Below, in pieces: positions 4,004 to 57,127 of a DNA stretch of 64,000 bases (its first letter is position 1; the number at the start of each line of letters is the position of its first letter). This DNA is from Ricordea florida (lineage: Eukaryota; Cnidaria; Anthozoa; Corallimorpharia; Ricordeidae). A program made the position numbers and the translations under genes. The notes under the pieces are model-generated. The model ran no database searches. It was not told the DNA's origin and was given only the letters and a program-made list of their open reading frames with translations. The stretch is taken from NCBI GenBank assembly GCA_949710005.1, contig OX453276.1, positions 31,306,591 to 31,370,590 of the forward strand. The letters are read 5' to 3'.

Positions 4004-4104
4004 ACTACTATGTTGGAGAAGTTATCGACCAATTTCGATTTTATCAGAGATTTATCAGAGATTTATCCAGAGATTTTACCAAGAAATTAATTTTGATATC
4101 AAGA
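4004..4104 (+). repeat. left terminal inverted repeat, element 1
   Basis: The outer 101 bp match 19053-19153 inverted with one mismatch seen by eye. Internally it holds repeated TTTATCAGAGA-like units. Further in, the two ends diverge and then become alike again for about 50 bp just before the start codons of both terminal genes. Confidence 0.9.
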
Positions 4105-4247
4105 TTTTATCAGAGATTTATCAAGGATTTTATCAAGTATTTTCTTTTTCTAGTCAAAAATTTTTATCAGAAATTTATCAGAAATTTATCAGAAATTTTA
4201 TCAAGGATTTTATCAGGATTTTTTAAAAAATGAATTTTTAAAACAGA
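4105..4247. repeat. subterminal TTTATCAGAAA/TTTATCAAGGA repeats
   Basis: Ten or so degenerate 11-12 bp units built on TTTATCA lie between the terminal repeat and the first gene. Similar units occur at all four element ends in the window, so they are candidate sites for the replication or priming machinery (inference). Confidence 0.7.
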
Positions 4248-4255
4248 TTTAAAGA
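4248..4255 (+). promoter_or_regulatory. TTTAAAGA box for the zinc-repeat gene
   Basis: The octamer TTTAAAGA starts 31 nt before the ATG at 4279. The same box stands at a similar distance before most genes of both elements, so it is likely a TATA-like promoter. Confidence 0.55.
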
Positions 4256-4278
4256 AATAATAATGAATTAGAAAATTG

Positions 4279-4860
4279 ATGGAGAAGCTAAATGTGAGAG
4301 AATTGGAGAAGCTAAATGCGATTCAATTGAAAGCCCTAGCTAAAGAGCGGGGTATTGAAAGATATTATTGGAAGACTAAACCCAAACTAATTGAATGTTT
4401 AGGTGATATAGACATAGACCCAAACACATTATCAAATATTATTAATAAAACAAAAACTAATAAGTATTATTACTGTATTCATGGAAAGTATAAATATTAT
4501 TGTAAGGAATGTTTTGGATCTCAACTATGTCCTCATAATGGAAGGAAAGATCGATGTAAAGAATGCTGTAACGGTACTAGTCTTTGTGAGCATAAAAGGG
4601 TGAGGTATATATGTAAAGACTGCAATGGGAAAGGAATATGTATTCATGGAAGAAGAAAGGCATATTGTAAAGAGTGTGGAGGATCTCAAATATGTATTCA
4701 TGAAAGAAATAAAGCTTATTGTAAAGAGTGTGGAGGATCTCAAATATGTATTCATGGAAAACAAAGAAGTTTTTGTAAGTTATGTGGAGGATCTCAAATA
4801 TGCGAACACAACAAACAGAAGACACATTGTAAAAAATGTCACACAACACAAGATACATAA
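4279..4860 (+). CDS. SAP-like / CxH-CxxC zinc-repeat protein
   Basis: The protein is about 193 residues if the ATG at 4279 is used; the in-frame TTG just before it is not a likely eukaryotic start. Residues 1-50 resemble a SAP-type helix-extended-helix DNA-binding motif ending in LGDIDID. From about residue 65 seven 18-residue units follow, each of the form C-x-H-x6-C-x2-C with GGSQI-type linkers, which looks like tandem zinc binding. A DNA- or RNA-binding role is inferred. It faces inward from the left terminal repeat. The homologue in element 2 has a different N-terminus, has lost two units and is frameshifted. Highly repetitive DNA in this gene also opens meaningless frames on both strands. 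Confidence 0.75.
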   Translation: MEKLNVRELEKLNAIQLKALAKERGIERYYWKTKPKLIECLGDIDIDPNTLSNIINKTKTNKYYYCIHGKYKYYCKECFGSQLCPHNGRKDRCKECCNGTSLCEHKRVRYICKDCNGKGICIHGRRKAYCKECGGSQICIHERNKAYCKECGGSQICIHGKQRSFCKLCGGSQICEHNKQKTHCKKCHTTQDT

Positions 4861-4940
4861 CAAAAAATTAAGTTATATAATGCAAGTCAGTGTTACATAA
4901 CAAAAATTTATATAATTCAGTCAATTTGAGTGAAAAAATT

Positions 4941-5576
4941 TTATCTAAATCTTAAACTTAAAGTTATGGGAGAACCCTTCAGATCAAGTTTTTTCCATTC
5001 AATGTCTAAGATGCTTAAATCGAAGTGGTTTATGAGGCTCTCATATTTTTGAACTGGAATTGTTGGATAATCTTGTGAGGGTATGTTAGCAAGTAGGTGT
5101 GAGGGTGAGAGTTTCACAAGTTCTCCATATTGAGTTTTATTCATATATGACGACTTATTATCTACTATACTACACATAAGTCTCAGTGGCTCATTAATCT
5201 GTATATTTATGGGGTATAATTTACCAGGATTTATGATTTCAGGCACCCCTAAACCAACTTGTAGCCCTCTCGTAAGTTTAATGTTGAAGATCTTATTGGA
5301 ATATAGATAGTCAACAGTATCAGTCTCAATGATTGTTATCTTCGCCCTTTCAGTATCATTAAGAAAGATCGATTGGATATTACGCAGTGAATATGTACCG
5401 GGCATAATTATTATGAGGGGCTGATTCTTATCATTGAACAATATCTGTTGATCCTTGAAATTAATCAATCTTTTGGTTTTTATATTACAATCCAGGAGTT
5501 GTATCTCCCGAAGATTTTTCAGTGGAGGATCCAAATACACCCTAGTTTCAGACTCGTACATGGTAATGCTCAACAT
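4941..5576 (-). CDS. beta-type protein, 211 aa (possible minor virion protein)
   Basis: I do not recognise a named family. The N-terminus (SETRVYLDPPLKNLREIQLL) matches that of the 128-residue protein at 8092-8478, and the C-terminal halves also align (MCSIVDNKSSYMN against MCDLVDSKSSYSN), so the two are paralogues; this one has an extra central segment. The PGTYSLRNIQSIF stretch resembles a motif seen in structural proteins of invertebrate virus-like elements. It has no membrane segment and alternating hydrophobic residues suggest beta-structure. A minor capsid or spike role is a guess. The element 2 copy has a premature TAG. Confidence 0.6.
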   Translation of the reverse strand: MLSITMYESETRVYLDPPLKNLREIQLLDCNIKTKRLINFKDQQILFNDKNQPLIIIMPGTYSLRNIQSIFLNDTERAKITIIETDTVDYLYSNKIFNIKLTRGLQVGLGVPEIINPGKLYPINIQINEPLRLMCSIVDNKSSYMNKTQYGELVKLSPSHLLANIPSQDYPTIPVQKYESLINHFDLSILDIEWKKLDLKGSPITLSLRFR

Positions 5577-5830
5577 TTTGTTTGTTTTGATTACTATATA
5601 TTCGCCTTTAAATTTCTATAATCAACATCTGAGAGGAATCGATCCTTAACAAAAAAATTTGCATTGACGTAATCACATTCCTGAGCGACGTTAGAAACCA
5701 GCCTTTTAAAAGTAAAGTTCAAATCCACTTTCCAACTTGCTTGTTGCTATGTCGTAAAAGTATGTAATCTATTGTTCTACACGTGAGCATTAATTTACAC
5801 ACAATCATAATCACGTGAAATACTCATGAA
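5577..5830. promoter_or_regulatory. intergenic region upstream of the 211-aa gene
   Basis: This 254-bp gap is conserved in element 2 (55303-55570). It holds a CTTTAAA box near 5604, about 30 nt before the ATG of the 211-residue gene. It is unusually long for this compact element and may also contain the 3' end of the 516-residue transcript. Confidence 0.4.
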
Positions 5831-7381
5831 CTACCGAAATAGATACCACGCTAATCCACCAGCGACAACTATGAATGCTAATATATTCTTTTCATGCTGC
5901 GTTGAGTCAATATTATTTTCGTGTTTCGTTGAGTATGTTTGCGTTGAGTCTGTTTTCATTGGTGGTTTTGATTTCGTTTCAGTTCTATGAGGTAACTTTA
6001 CCTTTGAAGATCCCATGTTATGACTTATTCCAACCTGTTTTGGTTCAGTGTTTATGGAATTATTCACTCCAAAACTCATATCATTACTAGCTTTCATAAG
6101 TTTATTATTAAAACCAGTCACGCTCTCAGTGTTGATTATCATATTACTAGGCATTAGCCATACACCAGGAGCAATAGCTAAATCAAGCCGTAATTTCGCT
6201 TCCTGTACAGCTAATTGATATCTTTGGATAGAACTAGAAATGTCATTCTCGATCACACTACTCTCAAATAAATTTATGAATTCTTGTTGAGTTTCAATCG
6301 CTCCACCACCACTACCGTAAATCGAATTTCTGGTATTGACTTGCGCCCCCAATATACAGTAAACAAAAGCTTCAACAGATCGATTCAATCTACCAAGTCC
6401 AGCTTTAGTGAGTCCATGACCACTTGTTGGGATAAACCAAGCATATTTGAAATCAGAAAAATCATCATTACGGATGAATGAGATTAGGTCACCTTTTTCT
6501 TTCTTACCACCTTCATCAGCAAATTTACCACCTTCACCAGGCCACTGATCAGCTTCATCATCGTAATTCCTTACAATATGAACATTTTGATTTCCTCCAC
6601 CTATTCCATTATATCCAGCACCATAATCAATAAATATATCACCTAAACCTCCGTTTCTTCCACCTTTCCATCTAAAGTCAGAGTTTTTTGAGATTCCAAA
6701 TTCTACACACAATCGTTGATATGCTACTTTACTATAGGGATTATTATTTATTACAAAAGGTTGCTCATCAGGTAAGGGAAGACTCAATTCATATAATATC
6801 CTCCTTATTGTGAAATACACATGAAACTTGATAAAGCTACTCACTACTTTAGGATAATTTAGGCTCTCAAAAGGACTTATACCACAACCAGAGGTCGCAC
6901 ACCAAACTGCAAAGTTAAGTTGTTGAGGCCAATAATTCATATCGGCTGCGTTCAACCATTTTCTACTCTGTTTACCAAATTTGAAAGTTACAACTTGGGA
7001 TGTAAATATGTTTCTCATCTTTGCTGTGAATTTCTTAGTATTTGACACGTATATATCCAGCGAGGTTAGCATTTTTGTTATGTCGCTTGTAAAGTCATCA
7101 AAATCAATTGCAGGTATTGGATAAGATCGATTGGTTATAGTTAAACTCTTTGGGAATGAACTCAATTCATCATCATCCAATCCTAAATCTTTCCATAAAA
7201 GTCTTTTCAAACGGGGTGATAGGTTATCAGTCCATGTTTTTCCAGTGAGGTCATCATAAGACATGATTGTTGTATCATTCACTTTCCACTTAATGTATCC
7301 TCCATACGGATCAGCCACAACTTTGAATTGACCTTGATCAGCCTTTGGATATTTATTTCTGAAATCATTTAGTAAACCCAT
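5831..7381 (-). CDS. 516-aa protein with C-terminal membrane anchor
   Basis: I do not recognise the family. Most of the protein looks globular (about residues 1-390), with a glycine-rich stretch near residues 240-290 (GGGNQNVH and neighbouring GEGGK). A low-complexity linker rich in Thr, Ser and Lys follows, and a single hydrophobic segment closes the chain (ILAFIVVAGGLAWYLF), so it is probably tail-anchored in a membrane. A large virion surface or vertex protein is possible but not shown. It begins the minus-strand block next to the glycine-rich protein. The element 2 homologue is split by a SINE. Confidence 0.65.
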   Translation of the reverse strand: MGLLNDFRNKYPKADQGQFKVVADPYGGYIKWKVNDTTIMSYDDLTGKTWTDNLSPRLKRLLWKDLGLDDDELSSFPKSLTITNRSYPIPAIDFDDFTSDITKMLTSLDIYVSNTKKFTAKMRNIFTSQVVTFKFGKQSRKWLNAADMNYWPQQLNFAVWCATSGCGISPFESLNYPKVVSSFIKFHVYFTIRRILYELSLPLPDEQPFVINNNPYSKVAYQRLCVEFGISKNSDFRWKGGRNGGLGDIFIDYGAGYNGIGGGNQNVHIVRNYDDEADQWPGEGGKFADEGGKKEKGDLISFIRNDDFSDFKYAWFIPTSGHGLTKAGLGRLNRSVEAFVYCILGAQVNTRNSIYGSGGGAIETQQEFINLFESSVIENDISSSIQRYQLAVQEAKLRLDLAIAPGVWLMPSNMIINTESVTGFNNKLMKASNDMSFGVNNSINTEPKQVGISHNMGSSKVKLPHRTETKSKPPMKTDSTQTYSTKHENNIDSTQHEKNILAFIVVAGGLAWYLFR

Positions 7382-7484
7382 CTTATTATTTACGTTGATA
7401 ATAGGATGCTTTTAAATCAACACCGTTCTTTTCTAATACCAACCTCACAATTCCATCCTACAGGCGTTCTCTCAAATGACATTT

Positions 7485-8081
7485 TCAACGTACGGGAGCT
7501 GTTAACTCCTTTAATATTTCCGCTCGAACCTCTGTTCTTATCTGGTTCATATTTAAATTTTTTTCTGTATCTTTCCTGTTTTTTTGACGGATTTCTAGTT
7601 TTAGTTTTTCAAACTTATCCACCTCTGATAAAATTAGCGAAAATTCTTGGTCAGAGATAGCGTTATCTTTCAGTGCCTTTGAAACCAAGTCGTGAATGGT
7701 ATTTACTTTTGCTTTTGCCAGAGAAACTGTCTGTTCATGTTTACTAACTTTATGGGAAAGTCGTTTAGAAGCCGCACCGAATCCAACCGATATTCCCCCA
7801 CAAATACCTCCCACCGCTCCTAATGGGATACCAACAGCAGCACCAAAACCAGTAAGGGAGGTTCCAAGTCCACTTGCAGATAAAATAACTGAAAACACCC
7901 CACTACCAACACTTATTTTTGTAAATATTCCCCTCACTCTATTGTATTTTTTCCTAACATCCTCGTAATGTTTAATTTCCTTCTCAAGATTTTGTAGTAC
8001 TTCGCATGACTTTTGTAGTCTGAAATTATTTGGATCACCATTCATAGGTAATTGTGGATAAATTCTATTGTAGTCTTCCAT
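7485..8081 (-). CDS. glycine-rich membrane protein, 198 aa
   Basis: Residues 1-50 and 120-198 are charged and helix-prone. Between them (about 55-105) lies a long Gly/Ala/Ser-rich hydrophobic stretch with GFGAAVGIPLGAVGGICGG, suggesting a membrane-inserting hairpin. It differs from the element 2 copy (52599-53195) at only about six positions, so it is under constraint or recently duplicated. A membrane-penetration or inner-membrane virion role is inferred from composition and from its place among other membrane proteins. No named family is recognised. Confidence 0.65.
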   Translation of the reverse strand: MEDYNRIYPQLPMNGDPNNFRLQKSCEVLQNLEKEIKHYEDVRKKYNRVRGIFTKISVGSGVFSVILSASGLGTSLTGFGAAVGIPLGAVGGICGGISVGFGAASKRLSHKVSKHEQTVSLAKAKVNTIHDLVSKALKDNAISDQEFSLILSEVDKFEKLKLEIRQKNRKDTEKNLNMNQIRTEVRAEILKELTAPVR

Positions 8082-8091
8082 ATTTTACTGA

Positions 8092-8478
8092 TCAACACGA
8101 TATCTTTAAATAAATTCGAACAGGTTTGTTATTCAAGTCAACCTTTTTTCCATTTTCATCTAAAAGCAATAAAGTAAAGTAGTTGACTGGATTTTTGTTT
8201 TTTGGAACTCTTAAACAAGTATTATTTGGAGATGGAATAACAGATAGTAGTTGTGAGGGTTTAAGTTCTATATTTTCACCACTGGGGATTATATTGGAAT
8301 ATGAAGACTTTGAATCTACAAGATCACACATTAAGTAGAAAGGTGAGTCATACCTCGCTATATTCGTGTAGATAAATATCAATTCTATCTCTTTTACATT
8401 GGTTAAGGGTGGATCCAGATAAATTCTTGTTTCAGGAGTTAGCATAGTGATATATAGAAAAATTGTATCATTCTTCAT
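8092..8478 (-). CDS. beta-type protein, 128 aa, paralogue of the 211-aa protein
   Basis: The protein shares the opening motif (TPETRIYLDPPLTNVKEIEL) and the C-terminal half with the 211-residue protein but lacks its middle. An inner Met just before TPETR could also be the start. Four differences are seen from the element 2 copy. The gene abuts the 198-residue gene (10-nt gap), whose promoter box lies in its last codons. Function is unknown; a minor structural role is plausible. Confidence 0.6.
   Translation of the reverse strand: MKNDTIFLYITMLTPETRIYLDPPLTNVKEIELIFIYTNIARYDSPFYLMCDLVDSKSSYSNIIPSGENIELKPSQLLSVIPSPNNTCLRVPKNKNPVNYFTLLLLDENGKKVDLNNKPVRIYLKISC
8103..8110 (-). promoter_or_regulatory. 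TTTAAAGA box for the 198-aa gene
   Basis: TTTAAAGA (minus strand) lies about 22-29 nt before the ATG at 8081, inside the 3' end of the preceding gene. It is conserved in element 2 at 52570-52577. Confidence 0.55.
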
Positions 8479-8489
8479 GTTTTTTTTAC

Positions 8490-9689
8490 TTATCGTCTCT
8501 TCTTTTTAAATTGTTCCACAAAATATAGAACCACAGCCACTATCAACAGCCAAGCGTTCTTACCTAAAAATCCAATAACCTCACCCGCTGTTTTGAAAAG
8601 AAAGCTCACGATAGCTCCAACCATTCCAGGCAATATTTCACCTAGTTTCTTACCAATAGTTTTCAAACCATTACCAACACCTTTACCCAATTTGGTTAGA
8701 CCTTTAGAAAGATTAGAAATTATAACACCAATGACCACACCTACGGCACTTACAACGGCAAAGACTGTAAAACCATACTTTTTGAAGATAGCCTTAACAC
8801 GATCACGAAGAGGCATATTTTTAAGTATTTTATCATTTTGTCTCTCTATAGCGCTTATTTGTTCTTGACTTAAAATTATCTGCTTTCTAGATAGTTCTTC
8901 AAATTTATTAACCCTTGATTGTAACTGATCATTACTTTGTTCTAGATTTTTTAAATTGGATAGTCCCTTCTTATATTTTTCGAGTTCATCTTTGTATCGA
9001 TTCAATTCAACTTTAAGTTTATCAACCTCTGTTTTAGATTCTATCTTCTGTTTAACAGCTGCATCTAAATGGCTTTCAATTTCCGCGATTCTGGTTTGAT
9101 GTTGCTCGATTATTCTACGCTTCTCTTTATCATTAACAATATAACTTTGTATCTCAAAATCATTTGTTTCCAATCTTGCTCTTAACCTATTTAGTGCATT
9201 AAGTAAATCCTTAATTTTTTCATTCTTTTCATTCAAATCATCAATTAGTTTATTATTATTTAGAATAAGACTCTGAGAATCAATACCAATTGCTCTCTTG
9301 ATTGTAACAGGAAGTGGCTCATAATTTACCAAATCCCCATTGTTTTTAATAAGTAAATGTTCCTTATTGTCAACTCGATCAGTCAATCTAACCCATACCC
9401 CTCCATCATCATCGATTCTTGCACTGAATGGTGATTCTAGTGGGTTGAAATTGAAGAACTTCTCTTCTATCTTTTTTAAAGCGCGAGCCCTATTGTCTTC
9501 TTTACTTTCATTAATCGGTGGAGATTCTTTATCATCACCATCTAACGAGGTTTCCTCCTCCTCCTCCTCATCAATGTCAATTAGACGAGTGGTGGATGAT
9601 ATTGGATCCATTTCCATATTTTCAGCATCAACATCACCACCTAGATTGGGTGGTTCAAAATCAGGTATATCTTTTACTCCATCTGCCAT
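8490..9689 (-). CDS. acidic coiled-coil membrane protein, 399 aa
   Basis: The order is an acidic N-terminus (residues 1-70, with a run of Glu), a variable middle, a long coiled coil (about 140-280), then two hydrophobic segments (about 300-325 and 360-390) around an amphipathic Gly/Lys stretch (LTKLGKGVGNGLKTIGKKL), and a basic tail FKKKRR. The first 36 and last 150 residues match the 380-residue element 2 protein closely, while the middle is strongly diverged. It could bridge a membrane to a virion core or host partner; this is inferred. No named family is recognised. Confidence 0.65.
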   Translation of the reverse strand: MADGVKDIPDFEPPNLGGDVDAENMEMDPISSTTRLIDIDEEEEEETSLDGDDKESPPINESKEDNRARALKKIEEKFFNFNPLESPFSARIDDDGGVWVRLTDRVDNKEHLLIKNNGDLVNYEPLPVTIKRAIGIDSQSLILNNNKLIDDLNEKNEKIKDLLNALNRLRARLETNDFEIQSYIVNDKEKRRIIEQHQTRIAEIESHLDAAVKQKIESKTEVDKLKVELNRYKDELEKYKKGLSNLKNLEQSNDQLQSRVNKFEELSRKQIILSQEQISAIERQNDKILKNMPLRDRVKAIFKKYGFTVFAVVSAVGVVIGVIISNLSKGLTKLGKGVGNGLKTIGKKLGEILPGMVGAIVSFLFKTAGEVIGFLGKNAWLLIVAVVLYFVEQFKKKRR

Positions 9690-9713
9690 GATTTTTTACT
9701 CATCAGTAAGAAA

Positions 9714-9721
9714 TCTTTAAA
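9714..9721 (-). promoter_or_regulatory. TTTAAAGA box for the coiled-coil gene
   Basis: The minus-strand octamer lies about 25 nt before the ATG at 9689. Its counterpart is at 51017-51024 in element 2. Confidence 0.55.
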
Positions 9722-9737
9722 CTGCTCACACATTTAT

Positions 9738-10130
9738 CTAAAATAATTTACTAACCATATAACCCAATGCCAGCATACCACCACCTACATATACCATCTC
9801 ACCCATATTTTGATTGTCACTAGGTCTATAATAATCAGAGAATTTTGGTTCATGTGTCTGACTATAAAATTTCAAAGCTTCATCGGTATTCGAAATATTT
9901 TGTGAAGCCTGGTGTTTAGCATCCTTCTGTTTAGAGTACCAATCAATTAGATTCTGTCTCTTTTCCTGGTATGTAGCATAATCTTTTTGATATTTTTCTA
10001 ATGCCTTATCGTGTCGTATTCGCTCTGAATCTGTTTTATCACCTGAGAGATATTTTGCAAGATATGAGCCACCAACGAATGTAGTAGCATTCAAAATAGC
10101 TCCACCAACCATCATTGCTATTGCTGCCAT
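9738..10130 (-). CDS. small protein with two membrane segments, 130 aa
   Basis: A hydrophobic N-terminal segment (AIAMMVGGAILNATTFVGG) and a C-terminal one (GEMVYVGGGMLALGYMVSKL) flank a charged, Tyr/Gln-rich middle of about 80 residues. Only a few residues differ from the element 2 copy. The start is 6 nt from the stop of the 72-residue gene, and no clear box precedes it, so the two are probably on one transcript. Function is unknown; a virion or assembly membrane protein is a reasonable guess. Confidence 0.65.
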   Translation of the reverse strand: MAAIAMMVGGAILNATTFVGGSYLAKYLSGDKTDSERIRHDKALEKYQKDYATYQEKRQNLIDWYSKQKDAKHQASQNISNTDEALKFYSQTHEPKFSDYYRPSDNQNMGEMVYVGGGMLALGYMVSKLF

Positions 10131-10136
10131 AAATCA

Positions 10137-10355
10137 TTAATTTGGTAAAATCTTTTGATCCTCTAAATATGTTTTTAGGTACATACTACCAGACAGGACA
10201 GCGACCCATTTAGCATAGTTTGTAATACTTGATGATGGATCATTCATAAATGATTCTTTCAGAGCCTTTTTAGCTACATATCCAACTCCAGCTGCTAATC
10301 CGATAAGGACTGCTGAATCAGTAACAGTTTTCACAAGTTTGTTTTCAGTTGACAT
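10137..10355 (-). CDS. small membrane protein, 72 aa
   Basis: The chain has an Ala/Gly-rich hydrophobic segment (SAVLIGLAAGVGYVAKKAL) and a second weaker one near residues 48-60. The frame is complete here, but in element 2 one A is missing from a homopolymer near the end and the last residues change. Function is unknown. Confidence 0.6.
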   Translation of the reverse strand: MSTENKLVKTVTDSAVLIGLAAGVGYVAKKALKESFMNDPSSSITNYAKWVAVLSGSMYLKTYLEDQKILPN

Positions 10356-10383
10356 GATTTTTTTTTATTGTGGTTATATAATA

Positions 10384-10391
10384 TCTTTAAA
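10384..10391 (-). promoter_or_regulatory. TTTAAAGA box for the 72-aa gene
   Basis: The octamer lies about 29 nt before the ATG at 10355. In element 2 it reads TTTAAAGG near 50349. Confidence 0.5.
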
Positions 10392-10400
10392 CTACTTTCC

Positions 10401-10823
10401 TCAGATCATTCCTATTTTCGGAGTTGGTTTAGGTGGTGGTTGGGAGGGTTGGGTGGGAATATTTGAAGGTGGAACTTTAGTCGGAACGTGAGATAAATCA
10501 ACTATTCTGTTTTTGTAATATCTCATAAACATGTCAACTGCAGTAAACCCTATTCCAACAATGGATAACACAGTAGTAAAAGATAGCTCTGGAATCCATG
10601 CTTTTGTGGTTTCTTCTTCTTCTTCATTGGAATTTTCTTCCTTTTTGGTTTCCGCTTGTTCCTTTTCACGTTTCATTTCCCTGGCTAACGCTTCTTTAGC
10701 TTTTTTATTATATTCTGCTAGTTTCTTACCAGCCGCAACCTTTTTAGGATCTTTCTCTTTCTTTTTAGTATCTTTCTTTTCAGGTATAGGATCCATTGTA
10801 ATTTGTTCAACTTGATCAGACAT
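10401..10823 (-). CDS. lysine-rich single-span protein, 140 aa
   Basis: Residues 1-70 are very rich in Lys and Glu (DTKKKEKDPKKVAAGKKLAE is typical). One hydrophobic segment follows (about 82-98, TVLSIVGIGFTAVDMFM), then a Pro-rich tail. The basic N-terminal part could bind DNA on the inside of a membrane or capsid, which is inferred from composition only. It is well conserved in element 2 (139 residues). Confidence 0.6.
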   Translation of the reverse strand: MSDQVEQITMDPIPEKKDTKKKEKDPKKVAAGKKLAEYNKKAKEALAREMKREKEQAETKKEENSNEEEEETTKAWIPELSFTTVLSIVGIGFTAVDMFMRYYKNRIVDLSHVPTKVPPSNIPTQPSQPPPKPTPKIGMI

Positions 10824-10850
10824 TATTATTTTATTTCACAAAGTAAAGAA

Positions 10851-10858
10851 TCTTTAAA
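10851..10858 (-). promoter_or_regulatory. TTTAAAGA box for the lysine-rich gene
   Basis: The octamer lies about 28 nt before the ATG at 10823 and touches the 3' end of the upstream gene. Confidence 0.55.
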
Positions 10859-11374
10859 TCAGTTGTGCTCAGTGACCTGCTCAGTTTTGTTAGAATCATC
10901 AGCATTTGTACTTGAAGCTTCTTGTATTTTGTTGATTTCAATGTGCTTTGCAACCTGGAATAGTCCGCTGGCAAGTGCTACCAATCTTCCACCTTTTAAT
11001 GCTAAGAGACCTACAAAGTTTGTCAGTTCACGATTAACCAACTCATCATTCTTCAAATCTTTACAAAGTGCTTCAATATCATCTACAGGAACCATGTAAG
11101 AAATGACTTGAGAAACTAATTGAAGAGATGAATCTACTAATCCACCACTAATTTTCTTACCTAATACTGTCTGATATCGATTATAATATTTTTCAACATC
11201 TTTTACCGATAGTTTCTTTATATCACCTAGACTCATCTCAAAACCTAAATATTCCTTTGTAGTCCCAAGAGATGCGAGAATAGCTAGTGATTCTTGTTTT
11301 ATTTCAATATCATCATCTTTTACATCATCTTTTACCTCTGGTTGTTCTTCCATAAAATCTTCAACTTCTGACAT
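10859..11374 (-). CDS. acidic helical protein, 171 aa
   Basis: The first 25 residues are strongly acidic. The rest is predicted helical and ends near residues 130-150 in a moderately hydrophobic stretch (FVGLLALKGGRLVALASGLF). The element 2 homologue (173 residues) has its differences concentrated at the N-terminus and the last 15 residues. It lies between the ATPase and lysine-rich genes. No family is recognised. Confidence 0.6.
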   Translation of the reverse strand: MSEVEDFMEEQPEVKDDVKDDDIEIKQESLAILASLGTTKEYLGFEMSLGDIKKLSVKDVEKYYNRYQTVLGKKISGGLVDSSLQLVSQVISYMVPVDDIEALCKDLKNDELVNRELTNFVGLLALKGGRLVALASGLFQVAKHIEINKIQEASSTNADDSNKTEQVTEHN

Positions 11375-11405
11375 ATTTTAATTTTGTAATAATACTTAGA
11401 TTCTT

Positions 11406-49362: not shown

Positions 49363-49884
49363 ATGACAGAAGTTGAAGATTACATAGAAGAAAAGACTGA
49401 GGTAAAAGATGTGGTAAAATATAATGATGATATTGAAATAAAACAAGAATCACTAGCTATTCTCGCAGTTCTTGGAACTACAAAGGAATATTTAGGTGTT
49501 GAGATGAGTCTGGGTGATATAAAGAATAAACTCACAGAAAAAGACATTGAAAAATATTATAATCGATATCAGACAGTATTAGGTAAGAAAATTAATGATG
49601 GATTAGTAGATTCATCTCTTCAATTAGTTTCTCATGCCATTTCTTACATGGTTCCTGTGGATGATATAGAAGCGCTTTGTAAAGATTTGAAGAATGATGA
49701 GTTGGTTAATCGTGAACTGACAAACTTTGTAGGTCTCTTAGCATTAAAAGGTGGAAGATTGGTAGCACTTGCTAGCGGACTATTTCAGGTTGCTAAACAC
49801 ATTAAAATCAACAAAATACAAGAAGTTTTAAACACAAATACTGATTATTCCAACAAAACTGAGCAGGTCACTGAGCACAACTGA
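49363..49884 (+). CDS. acidic helical protein, 173 aa
   Basis: The homologue of 10859-11374. The acidic N-terminus (EVEDYIEEKTEV) and the C-terminal 15 residues differ most, and the central helical part is nearly unchanged. Two residues are added relative to element 1. A TTTAAAAGA box overlaps the end of the ATPase gene upstream. Function is unknown. Confidence 0.6.
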   Translation: MTEVEDYIEEKTEVKDVVKYNDDIEIKQESLAILAVLGTTKEYLGVEMSLGDIKNKLTEKDIEKYYNRYQTVLGKKINDGLVDSSLQLVSHAISYMVPVDDIEALCKDLKNDELVNRELTNFVGLLALKGGRLVALASGLFQVAKHIKINKIQEVLNTNTDYSNKTEQVTEHN

Positions 49885-49892
49885 TTTAAAGA
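49885..49892 (+). promoter_or_regulatory. TTTAAAGA box for the lysine-rich gene
   Basis: About 28 nt before the ATG at 49920; overlaps the stop region of the gene before it. Confidence 0.55.
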
Positions 49893-49919
49893 TTCTTTAC
49901 TTTGTGAAATAAAATAATA

Positions 49920-50339
49920 ATGTCTGATCAAGTTGTTGAACAAATTACAATGGATCCTATACCTGAAAAGAAAGATACTAAAAAGAAAGAGAAAGATCCT
50001 AAAAAGGTTGCAGCTGGTAAGAAACTAGCAGAATATAACAAAAAAGCTAAAGAAGCGTTAGCTAGGGAAATGAAACGTGAAAAGGAACAAGAGGAGACTA
50101 AACAGGAAGAAAATTCTAATGAAGAGAGCGAATCTAAAGCATGGATTCCAGAGCTATCTTTTACTACTGTGTTATCTATTGTTGGAATAGGGTTTACTGC
50201 AGTTGACATGTTTATGAGATATTACAAAAACAGAATAGTCGATTTATCTCACGTTCCGACTAAAGTTTCGCCCTCAAATATTCCCACCCAACCCTCCCAA
50301 ACACCACCTAAACCAACTCCGAAAATAGCAATGATCTGA
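49920..50339 (+). CDS. lysine-rich single-span protein, 139 aa
   Basis: Same build as 10401-10823: Lys/Glu-rich N-terminal half, one membrane segment (TVLSIVGIGFTAVDMFM) and a Pro-rich tail. The acidic patch just before the membrane segment is shorter here. Function is unknown; a DNA-binding membrane protein is possible. Confidence 0.6.
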   Translation: MSDQVVEQITMDPIPEKKDTKKKEKDPKKVAAGKKLAEYNKKAKEALAREMKREKEQEETKQEENSNEESESKAWIPELSFTTVLSIVGIGFTAVDMFMRYYKNRIVDLSHVPTKVSPSNIPTQPSQTPPKPTPKIAMI

Positions 50340-50380
50340 GGAAAGTAGTTTAAAGGTTTTCTATATCATCAATAAAAATT

Positions 50381-50599
50381 ATGTCAACTGATAATAAACT
50401 TGTTAAAACTGTTACTGATTCAGCAGTCCTTATCGGATTAGCAGCTGGAGTTGGATATGTAGCTAAAAAGGCTATGAAAGAATCATTTATGAACGATCCC
50501 TCCTCAAGTATTACAAACTATGGTAAATGGGTCGCTGTATTGTCAGGTAGTATGTACCTAAAACATATTTAGAGGATCAAAAGATTTTACCAAATTAAA
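50381..50599 (+). pseudogene. 72-aa membrane protein homologue, frameshifted near its end
   Basis: The first 60 residues match the element 1 protein, but CCTAAAACAT has four A where element 1 has five. The frame therefore ends early (50572, KHI) and loses the last dozen residues. As only the tail is affected it may still work; a base-calling error in the homopolymer is possible. Confidence 0.65.
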
Positions 50600-50604
50600 G
50601 ATTT

Positions 50605-50997
50605 ATGGCAGCAATAGCAATGATGGTTGGTGGAGCTATTTTGAATGCTACTACCTTTGTTGGTGGATCATATCTTGCAAAATATCTCTCAGGTGATAAA
50701 ACAGATTCAGAGAGAATAAGACATGACAAGGCAATAGAAAAATATCAAAAAGATTATGCTACATATCAGGAAAAGAGACAGAATCTCATTGATTGGTACT
50801 CTCAACAGCGGGATGCTAAACACCAGGCTTCTCAAAATATTTCTAATACCGATGAAGCTTTGAAATTTTATAGTCAGACACATGAACCAAAATTCTCTGA
50901 TTATTATAGACCTAGTGACAATCAAAAGATGGGGGAGATGGTATATGTAGGTGGTGGTATGCTGGCATTGGGTTATATGGTTAGTAAATTCTTTTAG
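50605..50997 (+). CDS. small protein with two membrane segments, 130 aa
   Basis: Homologous to 9738-10130 along its whole length with few changes. Hydrophobic segments lie at both ends and a charged Tyr/Gln-rich middle between them. It starts 5 nt beyond the remnant stop of the preceding gene. Function is unknown. Confidence 0.65.
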   Translation: MAAIAMMVGGAILNATTFVGGSYLAKYLSGDKTDSERIRHDKAIEKYQKDYATYQEKRQNLIDWYSQQRDAKHQASQNISNTDEALKFYSQTHEPKFSDYYRPSDNQKMGEMVYVGGGMLALGYMVSKFF

Positions 50998-51016
50998 AGT
51001 TAATTGTGTGATCAGT

Positions 51017-51024
51017 TTAAAGAT
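51017..51024 (+). promoter_or_regulatory. TTTAAAGA box for the coiled-coil gene
   Basis: About 24-31 nt before the ATG at 51048, as in element 1. Confidence 0.55.
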
Positions 51025-51047
51025 TTCTTACTGATGAGTAAAAAATC

Positions 51048-52190
51048 ATGGCAGATGGAGGAAGAGATATACCTGATTTTGAACCACCCAATCTAGGTGG
51101 TGATGTTGATGCTGAAAATATGGAAATGGATCCAATATCATCCACCACTCGTCTAATTAACCCTGATGATGAGGAGAAGTGGGATGAAACTAGTGCCATA
51201 TTGTTTAGGGAGATGGAAATTGAACAAGATGAAGCTTGGGTTATAATAAAATCAAAATTCCCAAAAGTTGATACTTCTAAGATTATAGCCGGGATTAATA
51301 AATTTAAACAAGTAGTCGTAAAATTGATTAGGAAAGGATCAAAACCTCATTTGTTATTCAAAGGTAATGGTGAATTGAATGATTTATTACCGCCTACCAT
51401 TAAAATAGCTCTGGGGATTGATCCGACAACCTTAATTATAAGAAATGATGAACTTATAACACAATTGAATGAAGATAATGAAAAAATTAAGCATTTACTT
51501 AATACAATAGATGGGTTAAAATCAGTAAATGAAACAAGTAAAATAGAAATGGATCAATTGGTTACAATTAATAAAGAGCTGCGTGAATTCATTGAGAAAC
51601 AACAAGTAACAATCGCGGAAAAAGATAGCTATTTAGATAAAGCTAAAACAGATGCTGAGAAACTTTTGAGTGAATTAAATCGATACAAAGATGAAATCGA
51701 CAAATATAAGAAGGGAATGTCAAATTTAAAAAATTTAGAAGAAAATAGAGATAGTTTACAATCAAGGGTTAATAAATTTGAAGAACTTTCGAAGAAGACT
51801 ATAATTTACAATCAAGAACAAATATCCGATATTGAGAGAAGAAACGAGTTAATAATAAAACAACTACCATTAAGAGAGCGGGTAAAGTATATCTTTAAAA
51901 AGTACGGTTTTACAGTCTTTGCTGTTATGAGTGCTGTAGGTGTGGTCATTGGTGTTATAGTTTCTAATCTTTCCAAAGGTCTAACAAAATTGGGTAAAGG
52001 TGTTGGTAACGGTTTGAAAACGATTGGTAAGAAACTAGGTGAAATATTACCTGGAATGGTTGGAGCTATCGTAAGCTTTCTGTTCAAAACAGCGGGGGAG
52101 GTTATTGGATTTTTAGGTAAGAACGCTTGGTTGTTGATAGTGGCTGTGGTTCTATATTTTGTGGAACAATTTAAAAAGAAGAGACGGTAA
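51048..52190 (+). CDS. acidic coiled-coil membrane protein, 380 aa
   Basis: The first 36 residues (DIPDFEPPNLGGDVDAENM) and the last 150 or so are close to the element 1 protein. Between them, about residues 38-240, similarity is weak and the length differs. The coiled coil (about 120-265), amphipathic Gly/Lys stretch and two C-terminal hydrophobic segments with basic end FKKKRR are kept. A role at a virion membrane is inferred. Confidence 0.65.
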   Translation: MADGGRDIPDFEPPNLGGDVDAENMEMDPISSTTRLINPDDEEKWDETSAILFREMEIEQDEAWVIIKSKFPKVDTSKIIAGINKFKQVVVKLIRKGSKPHLLFKGNGELNDLLPPTIKIALGIDPTTLIIRNDELITQLNEDNEKIKHLLNTIDGLKSVNETSKIEMDQLVTINKELREFIEKQQVTIAEKDSYLDKAKTDAEKLLSELNRYKDEIDKYKKGMSNLKNLEENRDSLQSRVNKFEELSKKTIIYNQEQISDIERRNELIIKQLPLRERVKYIFKKYGFTVFAVMSAVGVVIGVIVSNLSKGLTKLGKGVGNGLKTIGKKLGEILPGMVGAIVSFLFKTAGEVIGFLGKNAWLLIVAVVLYFVEQFKKKRR

Positions 52191-52201
52191 GTAAAAAAAA
52201 C

Positions 52202-52588
52202 ATGAAGAATGATACAATTTTTCTATATATCACTATGCTAACTCCTGAAACAAGAATTTATCTGGATCCACCCTTAACCAATGTAAAAGAGATAGAATTG
52301 ATATTTATCTACACGAATATAGCGAGGTATGACTCACCTTTCTACTTAATGTGTGATCTTATAGAGTCAAAGTCTTCATATTCCAATATAACCCCCAGCG
52401 GTGAAAATATAAAACTTAAACCCTCACAACTACTATCTGTTATTCCATCTCCAAATAATACTTGTTTAAGAGTTCCAAAAAACAAAAATCCAGTCAACTA
52501 CTTTACTTTATTGCTTTTAGATGAAAATGGAAAAAAGGTTGACTTGAATAACAAACCTGTTCGAATTTATTTAAAGATATCGTGTTGA
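52202..52588 (+). CDS. beta-type protein, 128 aa
   Basis: Homologue of 8092-8478 with four changes seen, and paralogue of the 211-residue gene further on. It is intact and ends 10 nt before the next ATG. Function is unknown. Confidence 0.6.
   Translation: MKNDTIFLYITMLTPETRIYLDPPLTNVKEIELIFIYTNIARYDSPFYLMCDLIESKSSYSNITPSGENIKLKPSQLLSVIPSPNNTCLRVPKNKNPVNYFTLLLLDENGKKVDLNNKPVRIYLKISC
52570..52577 (+). promoter_or_regulatory. TTTAAAGA box for the 198-aa gene
   Basis: Inside the last codons of the preceding gene, about 22-29 nt before the ATG at 52599. Confidence 0.55.
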
Positions 52589-52598
52589 TCAGTAAAAT

Positions 52599-53195
52599 AT
52601 GGAAGACTACAATAGAATTTATCCACAAGTGCCTATTAACGGAGACCCACTTAATTTCAGACTTCAAAAATCGTGTGAAGTACTACAAAATCTTGAGAAG
52701 GAAATTAAACATTATGAGGATGTTAGGAAAAAATACAATAGAGCTAGGGGCATATTTACAAAAATCAGTGTTGGTAGTGGGGTGTTTTCAGTTATTTTAT
52801 CTGCAAGTGGACTTGGAACCTCCCTTACTGGTTTTGGTGCTGCTGTTGGTATCCCATTAGGAGCGGTGGGAGGTATTTGTGGGGGAATATCGGTTGGATT
52901 CGGTGCGGCTTCTAAACGACTTTCCCATAAAGTTAGTAAACATGAACAGACAGTTTCTCTGGCAAAAGCAAAAGTAAATACCATTCACGACTTGGTTTCA
53001 AAGGCACTGAAAGATAATGCCATATCCGACCAAGAATTTTCGTTAATTTTATCAGAGGTTGACAAGTTTGAAAAACTAAAACTCGAAATCCGTCAAAAAA
53101 ACAGGAAAGATACAGAAAAAAACTTAAATATGAATCAGATAAGAACAGAGGTTCGTGCAGAAATTTTAAAGGAGCTAACCGGTCCCATACGTTGA
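52599..53195 (+). CDS. glycine-rich membrane protein, 198 aa
   Basis: About 97% identical to the element 1 copy. The hydrophobic Gly/Ala core (SLTGFGAAVGIPLGAVGG) is unchanged. Intact. A membrane role in the particle is inferred from composition. Confidence 0.65.
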   Translation: MEDYNRIYPQVPINGDPLNFRLQKSCEVLQNLEKEIKHYEDVRKKYNRARGIFTKISVGSGVFSVILSASGLGTSLTGFGAAVGIPLGAVGGICGGISVGFGAASKRLSHKVSKHEQTVSLAKAKVNTIHDLVSKALKDNAISDQEFSLILSEVDKFEKLKLEIRQKNRKDTEKNLNMNQIRTEVRAEILKELTGPIR

Positions 53196-53298
53196 AAATG
53201 TCATTTGAGAGAACTCCTGTAGGATGGAATTGTGAGGTTGGTATTAGAAAAGAACGGTGTTGATTTAAAAACAACCTATTATCAACGTAAATAATAAA

Positions 53299-55302
53299 AT
53301 GTTACTCAATGATTTCAGAAATAGATATCCAAAGGCTGATCAAGGTCAATTCGTATTTGTAGCTGATCAATATGGAGGATACATTAGGTGGAAAGTTAAT
53401 GGTACAACAATCATGTCTTATGATGACCCTACTGGCAAAACATGGACTGATGACCTATCACCCCGTTTGAAAAGACTTTTATGGAAAGATTTAGGATTGG
53501 ATGATGATGAATTGAGTTCATTCCCAAAGAGTTTAACCTTGACAAATCGATATTATCCAATACCTGCAATTGATTTTGATGACTTTACAAGCGACATAAC
53601 AAAAATGCTAACCTCGCTGGATATATACGTGTCAAATACTAAGAAATTCACAGCAAAGATGAGAAACATATTTACATCCCAAGTTGTGACTTTCAAATTT
53701 GGTAAACAGAGTAGAAAATGGTTGAACGCAGCCGATATGAATTATTGGCCTCAACAACTTAACTTTGCAGTTTGGTGTGCGACCTCTGGTTGTGGTATAA
53801 GTCCTTTTGAGAGTCTAAATTATCCTAAAGTAGTGAGTAGCTTCATTAAGTTTCATGTGTATTTCACAATAAGGAGAATATTATATGAATTGAGTCTTCC
53901 CTTACCTGAGGAGCAACCTTTTGTAATAAATAATAATCCATATAATAAAGTCGCATATCAACGATTGTGTGCAGAATTTAGCATATCAAAAAACTCAGAC
54001 TTTAGATGGAAAGGTGGTAGAAACGGAGGATTGGGTGATATATTTATTGATTATGGTGCTGGATACAATGGAAGAGGTGGAGGAAATCAAAATGTACATA
54101 TGGTAAGGAACTATGATGTTGAAGCTGATCAGTGGCCTGGTGAAGGTGGTAAATTTTCTGATGAAGGAGGTAAGAAGGAAAAGGGTGATCTCATATCATT
54201 CATCTGTAATGACGATTTTGCTGATTTCAAATATGCTTGGTTCATCCCAACAAGTGGTCATGGACTCACTAAAGCTGGACTTGGTAGATTGAATCGATCT
54301 GCTGAAGCTTTTGTTTACTGTATATTGGGAGCGCAAGTTATAATAATAATAATAACGAGGCATTTATATAGCGCTTTATCTAAGGCTCAAAGCGCTTTAC
54401 AACACTTTTCGGGGGACTTTGCCAGACTGCTTATTAAAGGCGCAAATTGCAGCCATGCAGTTCACAATCTTATTAGAGTGAATAGTAGAGTACACAGGTG
54501 CCCCCAGAACAGAATAAGTGATAGACCATCACACCGGGGACTACGTCCCCTTCTCTTTCCGAACAGTGTGTGGGTTCTTTAACGTCCCACACCAGTACGT
54601 ATACGGTGAGACGGGACCTACGTTTATCGTCCTTATCCGAGAAGACTAGAAAGTCTAACCATTTGGAGATGTCATTGCAAAGGCAGCACTTTCTCCTCAG
54701 TTATTTAAAGACCCTGAGTGTTGGTCCGGTCGAGGATTTGAATCCACGACCTCCCGCACAGTAGTCCAGTGCCCTACCAACTGAGCTACCCGGTCGGCGG
54801 TCAAGTTAACACTAGAAATTCGATTTACGGTAATGGTGGTGGAGCGATCGAGACTCAACAAGAATTCATAAATTTATTTGAGAATAGTGTGATCGAGAAA
54901 GACATTTCTAGTTCTATCCAAAGGTATCAATTAGCTGTACAGGAAGCGAAATTACGGCTTGATTTAGCTATTGCTCCTGGTGTATGGTTAATGCCTAGTG
55001 ATATGATAATCAACACTGAAAGCGTGACTGGTTTTAATAACAAGTTGATGAAGGCTAGTAGTGATATGAGTTTTGGAGTAAATAATTCCCTAAACACTGA
55101 AGCAAAACAGGTTGGAATAAGTCATAACATGGGATCTTCAAAGGTAAAGTTACCTCATAGAACTGAAACGAAACCAAAACCCTCAATGAAAACAGACTCA
55201 ACACAAACATACTCAATTCAGACAGACTCAACCCAACATGAAAAGAATATATTAGCATTTATAGTTGTCGCTGGTGGATTAGCGTGGTATCTATTTCGGT
55301 AG
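53299..55302 (+). pseudogene. 516-aa anchored protein homologue, split by a SINE
   Basis: The N-terminal part (53299-54333) and the C-terminal part (54809-55302) match the element 1 protein on either side of the insertion point, which lies between ILGAQV and NTRNSIYG. The inserted 54341-54801 sequence puts stops and foreign residues in the frame, so the intact product cannot be made unless the insertion is spliced out. The C-terminal anchor is still present. Confidence 0.85.
54341..54801 (-). mobile_element. tRNA-derived SINE, ~460 bp
   Basis: On the minus strand the head has an A box TAGCTCAGTTGG (54777-54788) and a B-box-like GGATTCAAATCC (54734-54745), as in a tRNA. The body is about 370 bp, and the 3' tail is a (TTA)n-type run at 54341-54355. 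A 6-7 bp duplication (CAAGTTA) flanks it at 54334-54340 and 54802-54808. It is transcribed, if at all, by RNA polymerase III. Confidence 0.85.
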
Positions 55303-55570
55303 TTCATGAGTATTTCACGTGATTATGATTGTGTGTAAATTAATGCTCACGTGTAGAACAATAGATTACATACTTTTACGACATAGCAACAAGCAAGTTG
55401 GAAAGTAGATTTGAAGTTGAAAAGTAGATTTTAAGTTTACTTTAAAAAGGCTGGTTTCTAACGTCGCTCAGGAATGTGATTACGTCAATGCAAATTTTTT
55501 TGTTAAGGATCGATTCCTCTCAGAGGCTGATTATAGAAATTTAAAGGTGAATATGTAGTAATCAAACAAA
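55303..55570. promoter_or_regulatory. intergenic region upstream of the 211-aa homologue
   Basis: Matches 5577-5830 of element 1 with one short local duplication-like change near 55412-55440 (GTAGATTTGAAGTT followed by AAGTAGATTTTAAG). A TTTAAAGG box lies about 30 nt before the ATG at 55571. Confidence 0.4.
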
Positions 55571-56206
55571 ATGTTGAGCATCACCATGTATGAGTCTGAA
55601 ACTAGGGTGTATTTGGATCCTCCACTGAAAAATCTTCGGTAGATACAACTCCTGGATTGTAATATAAAAACCAAAAGATTGATTAATTTCAAGGACCAAC
55701 AGATATTGTTCAATGATAAGAATCAGCCCCTCATAATAATGCAGCCCGGTACATATTCACTGCGTAATATCCAAGCGATCTTTCTTAATGATACTGATAG
55801 GGCAAAGATAACAATCATTGAGACTGATACTGTTGACTATCTATATTCCAATAAGATCTTTAACATTAAACTTACTAGAGGGCTACAAGTTGGTTTAGGA
55901 GTGCCTGAAGTCATAAATCCTGGTAAATTATACCCCATAAATATACAGATTAAGGAACCACTGAGACTTATGTGTAGTATAGTGGATAATAAGTCGTCAT
56001 ATATGAATAACACTCAATATGGAGAACTTGTGAAACTCTCACCCTCACACCTACTTGCTAACATACCCTCACAGGATTATCCAACAATTCCAGTTCAAAA
56101 ATATGAGAGCCTCATAAACCACTTCGATTTAAGCATCTTAGACATTGAATGGAAAAAACTTGATCTGAAGGGTTCTCCCATAACTTTAAGTTTAAGATTT
56201 AGATAA
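55571..56206 (+). pseudogene. 211-aa beta-type protein homologue with premature stop
   Basis: Codon 24 is TAG (55640-55642) where element 1 has GAG. The remaining frame is open to 56206 and nearly identical to the element 1 protein, with an in-frame Met in the following 60 residues only weakly placed for reinitiation. Recent single-base inactivation is likely. Confidence 0.8.
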
Positions 56207-56246
56207 AATTTTTTCACTCAAATTGACTGAATTATATAAATTTTTG

Positions 56247-56915
56247 TTATGTAACACTGACTTGCGTTATATAACTTAATTTTTTGTTATGTATCTTGTG
56301 TTGTGTGACATTTTTTACAATGCGCCTTCTGTTTGTTGTGTTCACATATTTGAGATCCTCCACATAACTTACAAAAACTTCTTTGTTTTCCATGAATACA
56401 TATATTCCTTTACCTTTACAGTCTTTGCACATATACCTCTCCCGTTTATGCTCACAAATACTACCACCGTTACATTCTTTACAACGTGATTTCCTTTGAT
56501 TATGGAGGCATATTTGTGATCCATGACACTCTTTGCATTGATATTTAAAACTTCCATGAATACACTCATACTTTTTTGTTGCTGTTATTATTTCATCAAT
56601 AATATTCGATAATTTGTTTGAGTCTATGTCTATATCACCTAACTCTTCAATCAATTCAGGTCTAGTCATCCAATAATATTTTTTAATACCCTTCTCTTTA
56701 GCTATAGCTCTCATGTGTTCTACATTTAGATTTTCCAATACTTTATTAATAGGTTGTTTGAGGTTTTCAGGGGTAGATTTTTCAACAATATTAATGCTTG
56801 GTGCTTGTGCTTGTTTTATAGCTTCTCTGAGTTCTGCTTTAAGCATTTGAGAATATCTTTTAACACCCAATTCTTTAGCAATAACCTTCAATTCTTTTAC
56901 TGTTAACCGTTCCAT
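56247..56915 (-). pseudogene. double-SAP / zinc-repeat protein homologue, frameshifted
   Basis: Residues 1-40 form one SAP-like motif (VKELKVIAKELGVKRY) and about 65-95 a second one (MRAIAKEKGIKKYYW) ending in LGDIDID. Three CxH/CxxC units follow. Then two extra bases (AT in GGAATATATGT against GGAATATGT) shift the frame, and the last two units are read wrongly; two further units found in element 1 are missing. The first SAP motif resembles the start of the element 1 polymerase rather than the start of the element 1 zinc-repeat protein. Confidence 0.75.
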
Positions 56916-57127
56916 TTTTAATATTAAAATATATATCTTTAGACCAATATTAAAATTAATTTTTTTTAAAAATCGCTGTTAAAAATCCTTAATAAATTTC
57001 TTGACAAATTCTTATTAATCAGAACAAAAATATCCCATAAAATCCTTGATAAATCCTTGATAAATTTTTTACTCAAAATTAACTGAAAATTAACCAGTGC
57101 GCTCGTTTCGTGGAATACATACTCTCT
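56909..57127 (-). repeat. right terminal inverted repeat, element 2
   Basis: Inverted copy of 42531-42749, also running through the start codon (ATGGAAC) of the zinc-repeat gene. Confidence 0.93.

Follow-up and report, generated by a model that had tools for sequence, protein, structure and literature searches.

The 64,000-nucleotide stretch of Ricordea florida DNA analysed here (assembly GCA_949710005.1, contig OX453276.1, positions 31,306,591 to 31,370,590 of the forward strand; called the window below and numbered from its first letter) carries two Polinton-type elements, A and B, which are present from end to end, point in opposite directions and are separated by about 23 kb. Both have complete ends, terminal inverted repeats (TIRs) and target-site duplications (TSDs; TCGGT for A and AAAGA for B), and they share a virion cassette, as the initial annotation of this stretch had stated. 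Most probably (at roughly 0.82 by our own estimate) they belong to one large Polinton-type family, in which two replicon classes, each with its own ends and its own DNA polymerase (PolB), surround a shared recombining cassette, and in which the ends would be kept by recognition through the PolB of the same class. Judged from sequence comparison, each replicon class consists of PolB, both outer ends, the outer part of a zinc-repeat gene and, in the integrase (INT) gene, the final ~400 bp, and the cassette from the middle of the INT gene to the middle of the zinc-repeat gene appears to recombine often between the classes.

Shared virion cassette and divergent polymerases

The gene order was common to A and B: zinc-repeat gene, minor-capsid-like and small open reading frames (ORFs), packaging ATPase, major capsid protein (MCP), INT and PolB. 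In self-blastn, A 4299-14290 corresponded to B 56742-46448 in three blocks (85.8%, 91.3% and 94.7%), and the virion cassette of about 10 kb was mostly 90-100% identical per 150-bp step. The two PolB genes had no DNA match to each other, and uniform divergence across the element was set aside; 101 bp at the start of the A PolB matched the B zinc-repeat gene.

Amino-acid identity between A and B was 95.1% for INT, 96.9% and 100% for the two MCP pieces, 99.0% for the ATPase and 87-97% for the other ORFs, with 67% for a coiled-coil gene and 62% for the zinc-repeat gene. The identity of roughly 95-99% given in the initial annotation for capsid, ATPase, integrase and small genes was therefore too uniform. 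Two stretches inside the cassette were divergent: the outer zinc-repeat gene, at about 76-79% identity, and A 8654-9554 in the middle of the coiled-coil gene, at 50-89%. In the zinc-repeat gene identity jumped from about 78% to 97%, and the left change, predicted earlier for this gene, was placed at A ~4604-4754.

The ratio of nonsynonymous to synonymous divergence (dN/dS) was 0.11 for INT, 0.13 and 0 for the MCP pieces, 0.05 for the ATPase and 0.07-0.33 in seven other cassette comparisons; higher values came from the zinc-repeat gene (0.40), the coiled-coil gene (0.54) and ORF128 (about 1.1, from five differences only). Since it was at most 0.33 in 11 of the 14 window cassette comparisons, the divergence was mostly under purifying selection. 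In the middle of the coiled-coil gene (window 8654-9554 and 51184-52026), dS reached saturation at codons 41-132, with nearly identical sequence on either side, which could reflect the exchange of a distinct allele; this middle part may, as a guess, be an exposed or receptor-binding part.

A-type and B-type PolB were about 25% identical. In profile-profile comparison they aligned over 1,130 columns (100% probability, E 2e-51), N-terminal regions included, and the earlier claim that nothing aligned outside the core motifs was therefore overstated. The accessory domains, described there as different, overlapped more between the types than had been stated. An Endonuclease VII-like insertion existed in all 12 aligned B-type members, and the match of the A-type PolB to Vsr endonuclease was weak (E 0.026). 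Rho_N was found in both alignments, in 4 of 13 members of the A type and in 10 of 12 of the B type. The window B PolB was itself without Rho_N, and its start codon lay at the inner TIR edge (42743-42749). The exonuclease (exo) and polymerase (pol) motifs of the window PolBs were read by eye.

Database relatives at E up to 1e-3 numbered 964 for the B type and 1457 for the A type; among the 120 listed per type, identity was 64-76% (B) and 56-80% (A). Three of the B-type matches listed were named, all from sea anemones. In a tree of 42 PolBs (20 of the 120 listed per type and the window pair), the two types were split with a Shimodaira-Hasegawa-like approximate likelihood-ratio (SH-aLRT) value of 100, the window PolBs fell in separate starred clades, and forcing them together was rejected (log-likelihood lower by 1525; p 0.00036 in the approximately unbiased (AU) test). 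In the MCP protein tree of 122 rows (120 listed and the window pair), both window MCPs stood in one starred three-row group. Since these two trees disagree, the histories of PolB and capsid differ, and the discordance between replicon and particle genes proposed initially was borne out. The MCP of database relative P0241 (contig of 31,594 bases) was at a distance of 0.054 from that of B, and the A-B distance was 0.051; homogenisation of the neighbouring window pair is therefore not the cause of the similarity.

Linkage of polymerase type across the genome copies

The genome, a 537.8-Mb assembly of 48 contigs, held at least 31 long A-type PolB copies (82-100% identity) and at least 37 long B-type copies (79-100%), the window copy included in each count, and the copies were spread over many contigs. 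The window pair was analysed with 40 further copies, the 20 best-scoring ones of each class out of 30 A-type and 36 B-type copies outside the window. Each copy supplied its PolB-side end and the 3.4 kb that run from the PolB 3' end across INT, MCP and ATPase; for 20 of the 40 non-window copies a piece meant to reach the opposite end was added, and five of these pieces were extended. The same INT and MCP family was present in 20/20 A-type and 20/20 B-type non-window copies; identity to B was 80-95% for INT and 67-99% for MCP, and the ATPase was found in 38 of the 40. A tentative matching of database contigs, in which 18 of the 120 listed MCP matches went with a listed B-type PolB and 2 with an A-type, had given a hint that this capsid family occurs mainly with B-type PolB; the copies of this genome did not bear it out, and the matching was not used for the direction of exchange.

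Trees were built for the 42 copies (40 for ATPase); these are quick trees, distorted by recombination inside genes. On the MCP tree PolB type changed 15 times against a shuffled mean of 14.3 (380 of 500 shuffles as low), at least 7 of the changes being forced by starred branches, and on the ATPase tree 13 times against about 13.5, at least 5 being forced. On the INT tree there were only 2 changes against 14.3 (0/500). MCP class (at least 95% identical to B, or less) was also independent of PolB type, with 6/21 A and 7/21 B (Fisher p 1.0). By these genealogies PolB type was random, or nearly so, with respect to capsid and ATPase lineages.

A map along the sequence, made without trees, gave the same picture. 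With 200-bp windows (chance 0.5), the nearest-neighbour accuracy for PolB type reached 1.00 and 0.95 over the final 400 bp of INT, against 0.63-0.75 elsewhere in this gene, 0.52-0.68 within MCP and 0.42-0.56 within ATPase. With 80-bp steps that start at the PolB side of INT, the values were 1.00, 0.97, 0.90, 0.81, 0.83, 0.77 and 0.50, the last value at codons 145-171, with 0.70 later at codons 92-118; linkage thus dropped to about chance some 500 bp from PolB. All 45 near-fixed differences lay at 46351-46684 of B and none in MCP or ATPase. The map therefore placed the change of genealogy inside the INT gene and not at 14290/46448, the breakpoint of the initial annotation, which is only the end of homology. 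Co-adaptation of the INT C-terminus with the ends was considered and rejected: among 11 near-fixed INT differences, 4 were at stop codons and only codons 252, 255 and 285 changed the amino acid, and hitch-hiking is the simpler reading given so few amino-acid changes.

The MCP of the A-type copies was bimodal in its identity to B, 96-98% in 5/20 and 80-84% in 15/20, and this variable gene sat between the less variable INT and ATPase. In the even-numbered loci from L010 to L048, the two MCP classes differed mainly in the second half of the gene (B ~47900-48650).

Terminal repeats and ends

Between A and B, the outer 45-83 bp of the TIRs showed no relation (a score as high came from 482 of 500 shuffles), and the inner halves, rich in TTTATCA, were related (0/500 shuffles reached the score). 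The different terminal repeats of the initial annotation were thus real for the outermost ~45-83 bp but not for the inner halves. When the outermost 83 bp of A were compared with the first 83 bp of B, the score exceeded all 500 shuffles; we think that this B stretch already contains the shared inner sequence.

Inspection by eye located the right end of 37 of the 42 copies (20 A, 17 B). Nucleotides 10-40 classified PolB type in 37/37 by nearest neighbour (0/500 shuffles), and the accuracy was 0.84 for nucleotides 1-9 and 0.90 for nucleotides 31-60 (0/500 each). The A-type right ends started with AGTAGT (15/20), AGTAGG (2), ACTACT (2, window copy A and L027) or GGTGTT (1), and 13 of the 17 B-type ends with AGAGAG. 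Such short repeats at the termini, two or three bases long, resemble the sliding-back starts known from other protein-primed genomes, and both PolB types are, by kinship, probably protein-primed.

Left ends were present in 14 of the 20 pieces, and in all 14 (8 A, 6 B) the best-matching right end was that of the same copy, being identical over 40 nucleotides in 11; by our arithmetic, full agreement of 8 + 6 labels has a chance of 1 in 3003. No mixed-class ends were seen among these 14 copies with both ends. The outer zinc-repeat gene was nearer to its own class in 6/6 A and 6/6 B of 12 non-window copies, three of them marginally (L095, L108 and L113), and on the adjacent cassette side, in 11 of the 12, ten were slightly nearer to B regardless of class and one was tied. 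A direct repeat abutted the ends in 12 of 14 further copies (5 bp in 11, 6 bp in one) and none was found in two. As such repeats occurred at the ends of both classes, a single integrase family seems to insert ends of either type.

Weighing of the explanations

For the proposed two-class family, the exchange would be homologous recombination between co-resident copies, probably during replication outside the chromosome. PolB with its fused terminal-protein domain would initiate only on its own end sequence, and a viable molecule would need two matching ends and a matching PolB, so that molecules with unmatched ends would fail or be lost. A single crossover would yield one end of each class; recombination could occur anywhere in the cassette, and the products that have both ends of one class would survive.

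Several points weigh against this reading. The joint change of end and PolB that the initial annotation had claimed held for nucleotides 10-40 and for the left ends, but not for the outermost hexamer, for AGTAGT, the start of most A-type ends, was also that of 4/17 B-type right ends. The coupling of right end and PolB could be plain proximity, and the left TIR could owe its identity to copying of the right one; since such copying is possible, the independent long-range evidence is the outer zinc-repeat gene, with its 12 copies, 3 of them marginal. A trace of linkage persists in parts of MCP and ATPase: accuracy was nominally above chance in one INT 5' window (p 0.000, 200 shuffles) and in 2/6 MCP windows (p 0.02 and 0.01, uncorrected), and a within-class identity excess of 0.002-0.004 was nominally significant in 3/3 INT 5' and 2/3 ATPase windows. 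The N-terminal extension was B-like in 15 of the 120 listed A-type relatives (P0139, P0166, P0220 and 12 others), its median identity being 45% and that of the core 30% (60 pairs sampled; the shuffled control had a median of 26% and a maximum of 50%), and parts of PolB may thus recombine too, elsewhere than in the window pair. Short conversion tracts inside the cassette may keep the ends together without any recognition. Finally, the case is one from sequence comparison.

Ectopic gene conversion between chromosomal copies, in which internal tracts mix the cassette and leave the ends in place, is the most serious competitor, though a doubtful one. Linkage at about chance within ~500 bp and the bimodal MCP are what short tracts would give, and the dispersal of the copies over many contigs fits as well. 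However, conversion among dead copies would neither keep a dN/dS near 0.1 in INT, MCP and ATPase nor leave 51 of the 68 PolB copies free of listed in-frame stops (best candidates first; frameshifts outside the scope of this count); conversion among live young copies could.

Far less probable is a single recent exchange of an intact cassette between A and B, broken at the junction of INT and PolB and within the zinc-repeat gene. The sharp loss of DNA similarity at 14290/46448 and the jump of identity in the zinc-repeat gene would suit it, as would the ATPase tree, on which A of the window was the nearest row to B. The other trees disagree: on the INT tree A stood in an 18-row starred A-only clade with B outside, and on the MCP copy tree the nearest rows to B were L051 (B type), L017 and L011 (both A type) and not A. 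In INT, dS between A and B was 0.15-0.23 at codons 1-220 and climbed to 0.35-0.37 at codons 221-329 toward PolB, as a change of genealogy inside this gene predicts; across the cassette genes other than zinc-repeat and coiled-coil, dS was uneven, from 0.012 (ORF128) to about 0.25, and the linkage pattern was population-wide. The modular exchange of the initial annotation was therefore upheld as an exchange of replicon and particle genes but not as one swap between A and B, the pair being two samples of a repeatedly recombining pool.

Descent of A and B from one element in which only PolB and the ends evolved fast is hardly credible. The distant homology of the PolBs along most of their length would favour it, but each has its own 120 listed relatives at the identities given above, and the tree joining the window PolBs was rejected. 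An assembly chimera deserves as little credit: high-copy repeats can be mis-joined, but TIRs match and a target duplication is present in both window elements, PolB of either class was followed by this INT in 40 further copies, and class-specific ends were present in the 35 further copies with a located right end.

Polinton membership and features of the window elements

The features of both elements are collected in Table 1. The rve integrase (PF00665) was above the Pfam cut-off in A and B, and the packaging ATPase was recognised as Pox_A32 in B and by homology in A. The AlphaFold model of the MCP (pLDDT 71.7) had its best Foldseek matches in the PDB among iridovirus and PBCV-1 capsids (E 1.8e-14) and matched the mavirus MCP at E 4.4e-10; against BFVD, capsids of large DNA viruses mostly came first and an adintovirus protein stood at rank 12. 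By sequence, the MCP matched Pfam Capsid_N at E 4e-4, below the cut-off, and its profile gave no match in the PDB. No protease family was found at E 0.1 among the ORFs scanned for a cysteine protease, and a diverged one is possible. Long TIRs were present (302/307 bp in A, 219 bp in B), and the TSD was 5 bp in both window elements instead of the usual 6 bp of Polintons.

Neither window PolB matched Pfam DNA_pol_B_2 up to E 1. Copy L001, which matched PF03175, was 67.6% identical to the window B PolB over residues 329-1113, which supports the identity as PolB. In an alignment of 15 PolBs, a Cys and a His, OTU-like by our reading, stood in invariant columns; the model that AlphaFold gave for the A-type accessory region (pLDDT 41) was too poor for use. 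Four PF03175 hits of similar score were observed on contig C8 of the genome (G000:C8:21371593, 21376908, 21382222 and 21398704), the first three spaced at 5,314-5,315 bp, as would be the case in a tandem array of a different PolB element of ~5.3 kb. Scans of IMG/VR and GTDB contigs with MCP and PolB queries gave no relatives.

Neither window copy is fully intact, with the MCP frame broken in A and the homologue of the 516-aa ORF interrupted in B. Outside the elements, an NB-ARC/TPR open frame of 968 aa, probably a host gene, lay between them at 23761-26667, and a reverse-transcriptase fragment was found at 59756-60403 (RVT_1, E 5e-10).

Table 1. Elements A and B of the window, with their repeats and genes (window positions)
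Feature	Position	Strand	Remarks
Element A, Polinton-type, A-type PolB	4004..19153		TIRs and 5-bp TSD TCGGT
Left TIR (A)	4004..4305	+	starts ACTACTATG; inner TTTATCA repeats
Zinc-repeat gene (A)	4276..4860	+	outer part linked to PolB type, inner part cassette-like; Rho_N-like N-terminus, match below cut-off
Minor-capsid-like ORF (A)	4941..5576	-	label is our reading of the sequence; no Pfam match
ORF 516 aa (A)	5831..7381	-	no Pfam match
ORF 198 aa (A)	7485..8081	-	
ORF 128 aa (A)	8092..8478	-	1 synonymous difference at 83 sites against B
Coiled-coil/membrane-like ORF (A)	8490..9689	-	our reading; divergent middle 8654-9554
ORF 130 aa (A)	9738..10130	-	
ORF 140 aa (A)	10401..10823	-	
ORF 171 aa (A)	10859..11374	-	
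Packaging ATPase (A)	11406..12032	-	99.0% identical to B homologue, which matches Pox_A32
MCP gene (A)	12040..13276	-	frame broken: ORFs 12040-12426 and 12359-13276
Integrase (A)	13311..14300	+	rve; from ~13893 on linked to PolB type
A-type PolB	14302..18876	-	Rho_N, linker, OTU-like and C2H2-like region, weak Vsr-like region, exo, pol
Right TIR (A)	18847..19153	-	
Element B, Polinton-type, B-type PolB	42531..57127		opposite to A; TIRs and 5-bp TSD AAAGA
PolB-side TIR (B)	42531..42749	+	starts AGAGAGTATG
B-type PolB	42743..46489	+	Endonuclease VII-like insertion; 3' end overlaps integrase gene
Integrase (B)	46435..47427	-	rve; 46435 to ~46840 linked to PolB type
MCP (B)	47462..48697	+	open frame 411 aa, double jelly-roll fold (model)
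Packaging ATPase (B)	48705..49331	+	Pox_A32 E 1.6e-11
ORF 173 aa (B)	49363..49884	+	
ORF 139 aa (B)	49920..50339	+	
ORF 130 aa (B)	50605..50997	+	
Coiled-coil/membrane-like ORF (B)	51048..52190	+	divergent middle
ORF 128 aa (B)	52202..52588	+	
ORF 198 aa (B)	52599..53195	+	
Homologue of 516-aa ORF (B)	53299..55302	+	interrupted by ~460 bp (~54339-54801) absent from A
Minor-capsid-like ORF (B)	55679..56206	+	
Zinc-repeat gene (B)	56247..56915	-	Rho_N E 1.1e-14; outer part 56437-56740 linked to PolB type
Zinc-side TIR (B)	56909..57127	-	

Relation to known systems and meaning

The elements resemble Polintons/Mavericks as described in PMC4028283 in having PolB, rve INT, packaging ATPase, double jelly-roll MCP, a length of ~15 kb and TIRs, and differ in the 5-bp duplications and in the protease, which was not recognised here and is stated there to be identifiable, as an adenovirus-like cysteine protease, in 74% of Polintons. 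A TSD of 6 bp is given as typical of rve-INT and one of 5-6 bp for Polinton-like viruses (PLVs) in PMC12220804. An N-terminal terminal-protein domain and a vOTU domain, the latter probably releasing the terminal protein, are described for polinton PolB in PMC11071308.

For adintoviruses, Alpha/Beta hexon-PolB pairings AA, BB, AB and BA, and adintovirus-like PolB/INT together with large-virus capsids, are described in PMC11071296. Two PolB clades paired with virion genes in all combinations and an rve integrase are common to that account and to the present elements, and an OTU-like domain may be; the pairings there are of deep clades from separate datasets, whereas here one capsid pool in one genome gave a linkage map. 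The MCP here resembles iridovirus/PBCV capsids by fold. In cryptophyte PLVs (PMC12220804) the phylogenies of protein-primed polymerase (pDNAP) and MCP are incongruent, and as here a replication gene was replaced relative to capsid genes in elements with many copies per host; the hosts there are protists, and class-specific ends, found here, are not known from that account. EMALE01 and EMALE02, endogenous virophages of Cafeteria burkhardae, are described as a half-swapped pair (PMC8547959), which is similar in that one half is homologous and the other unrelated, exchange of a morphogenesis module is proposed and the TIRs are regenerated. Unlike the present case, it is the capsid module that differs there; here PolB and ends differ and the exchange is recurrent.

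Exchange of replicon and virion genes between lineages is thus already known, and its population-level form in one genome seems new: by title and abstract no within-genome linkage map of such exchange was found in the literature, subscription papers being mostly outside this scope. What was earlier drawn from discordant deep trees and odd pairings could here be read as the population genetics of a single genome. With dozens of copies per class, a linkage map was obtained which places the boundaries of the replicon module inside the INT gene and the zinc-repeat gene, and which is a test of whether protein-primed origin specificity ties both ends and the polymerase together. The chances are about even that two mutually incompatible protein-primed replicon classes keep one effectively sexual pool of virion genes, with both ends tied to the polymerase across 10 kb of unlinked cassette, and in which lineages would be delimited by own-end recognition and not by the capsid. 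If the long-range coupling is functional, recognition between polymerase and ends would be the natural criterion of lineage in such elements, and capsid trees would not follow lineages.

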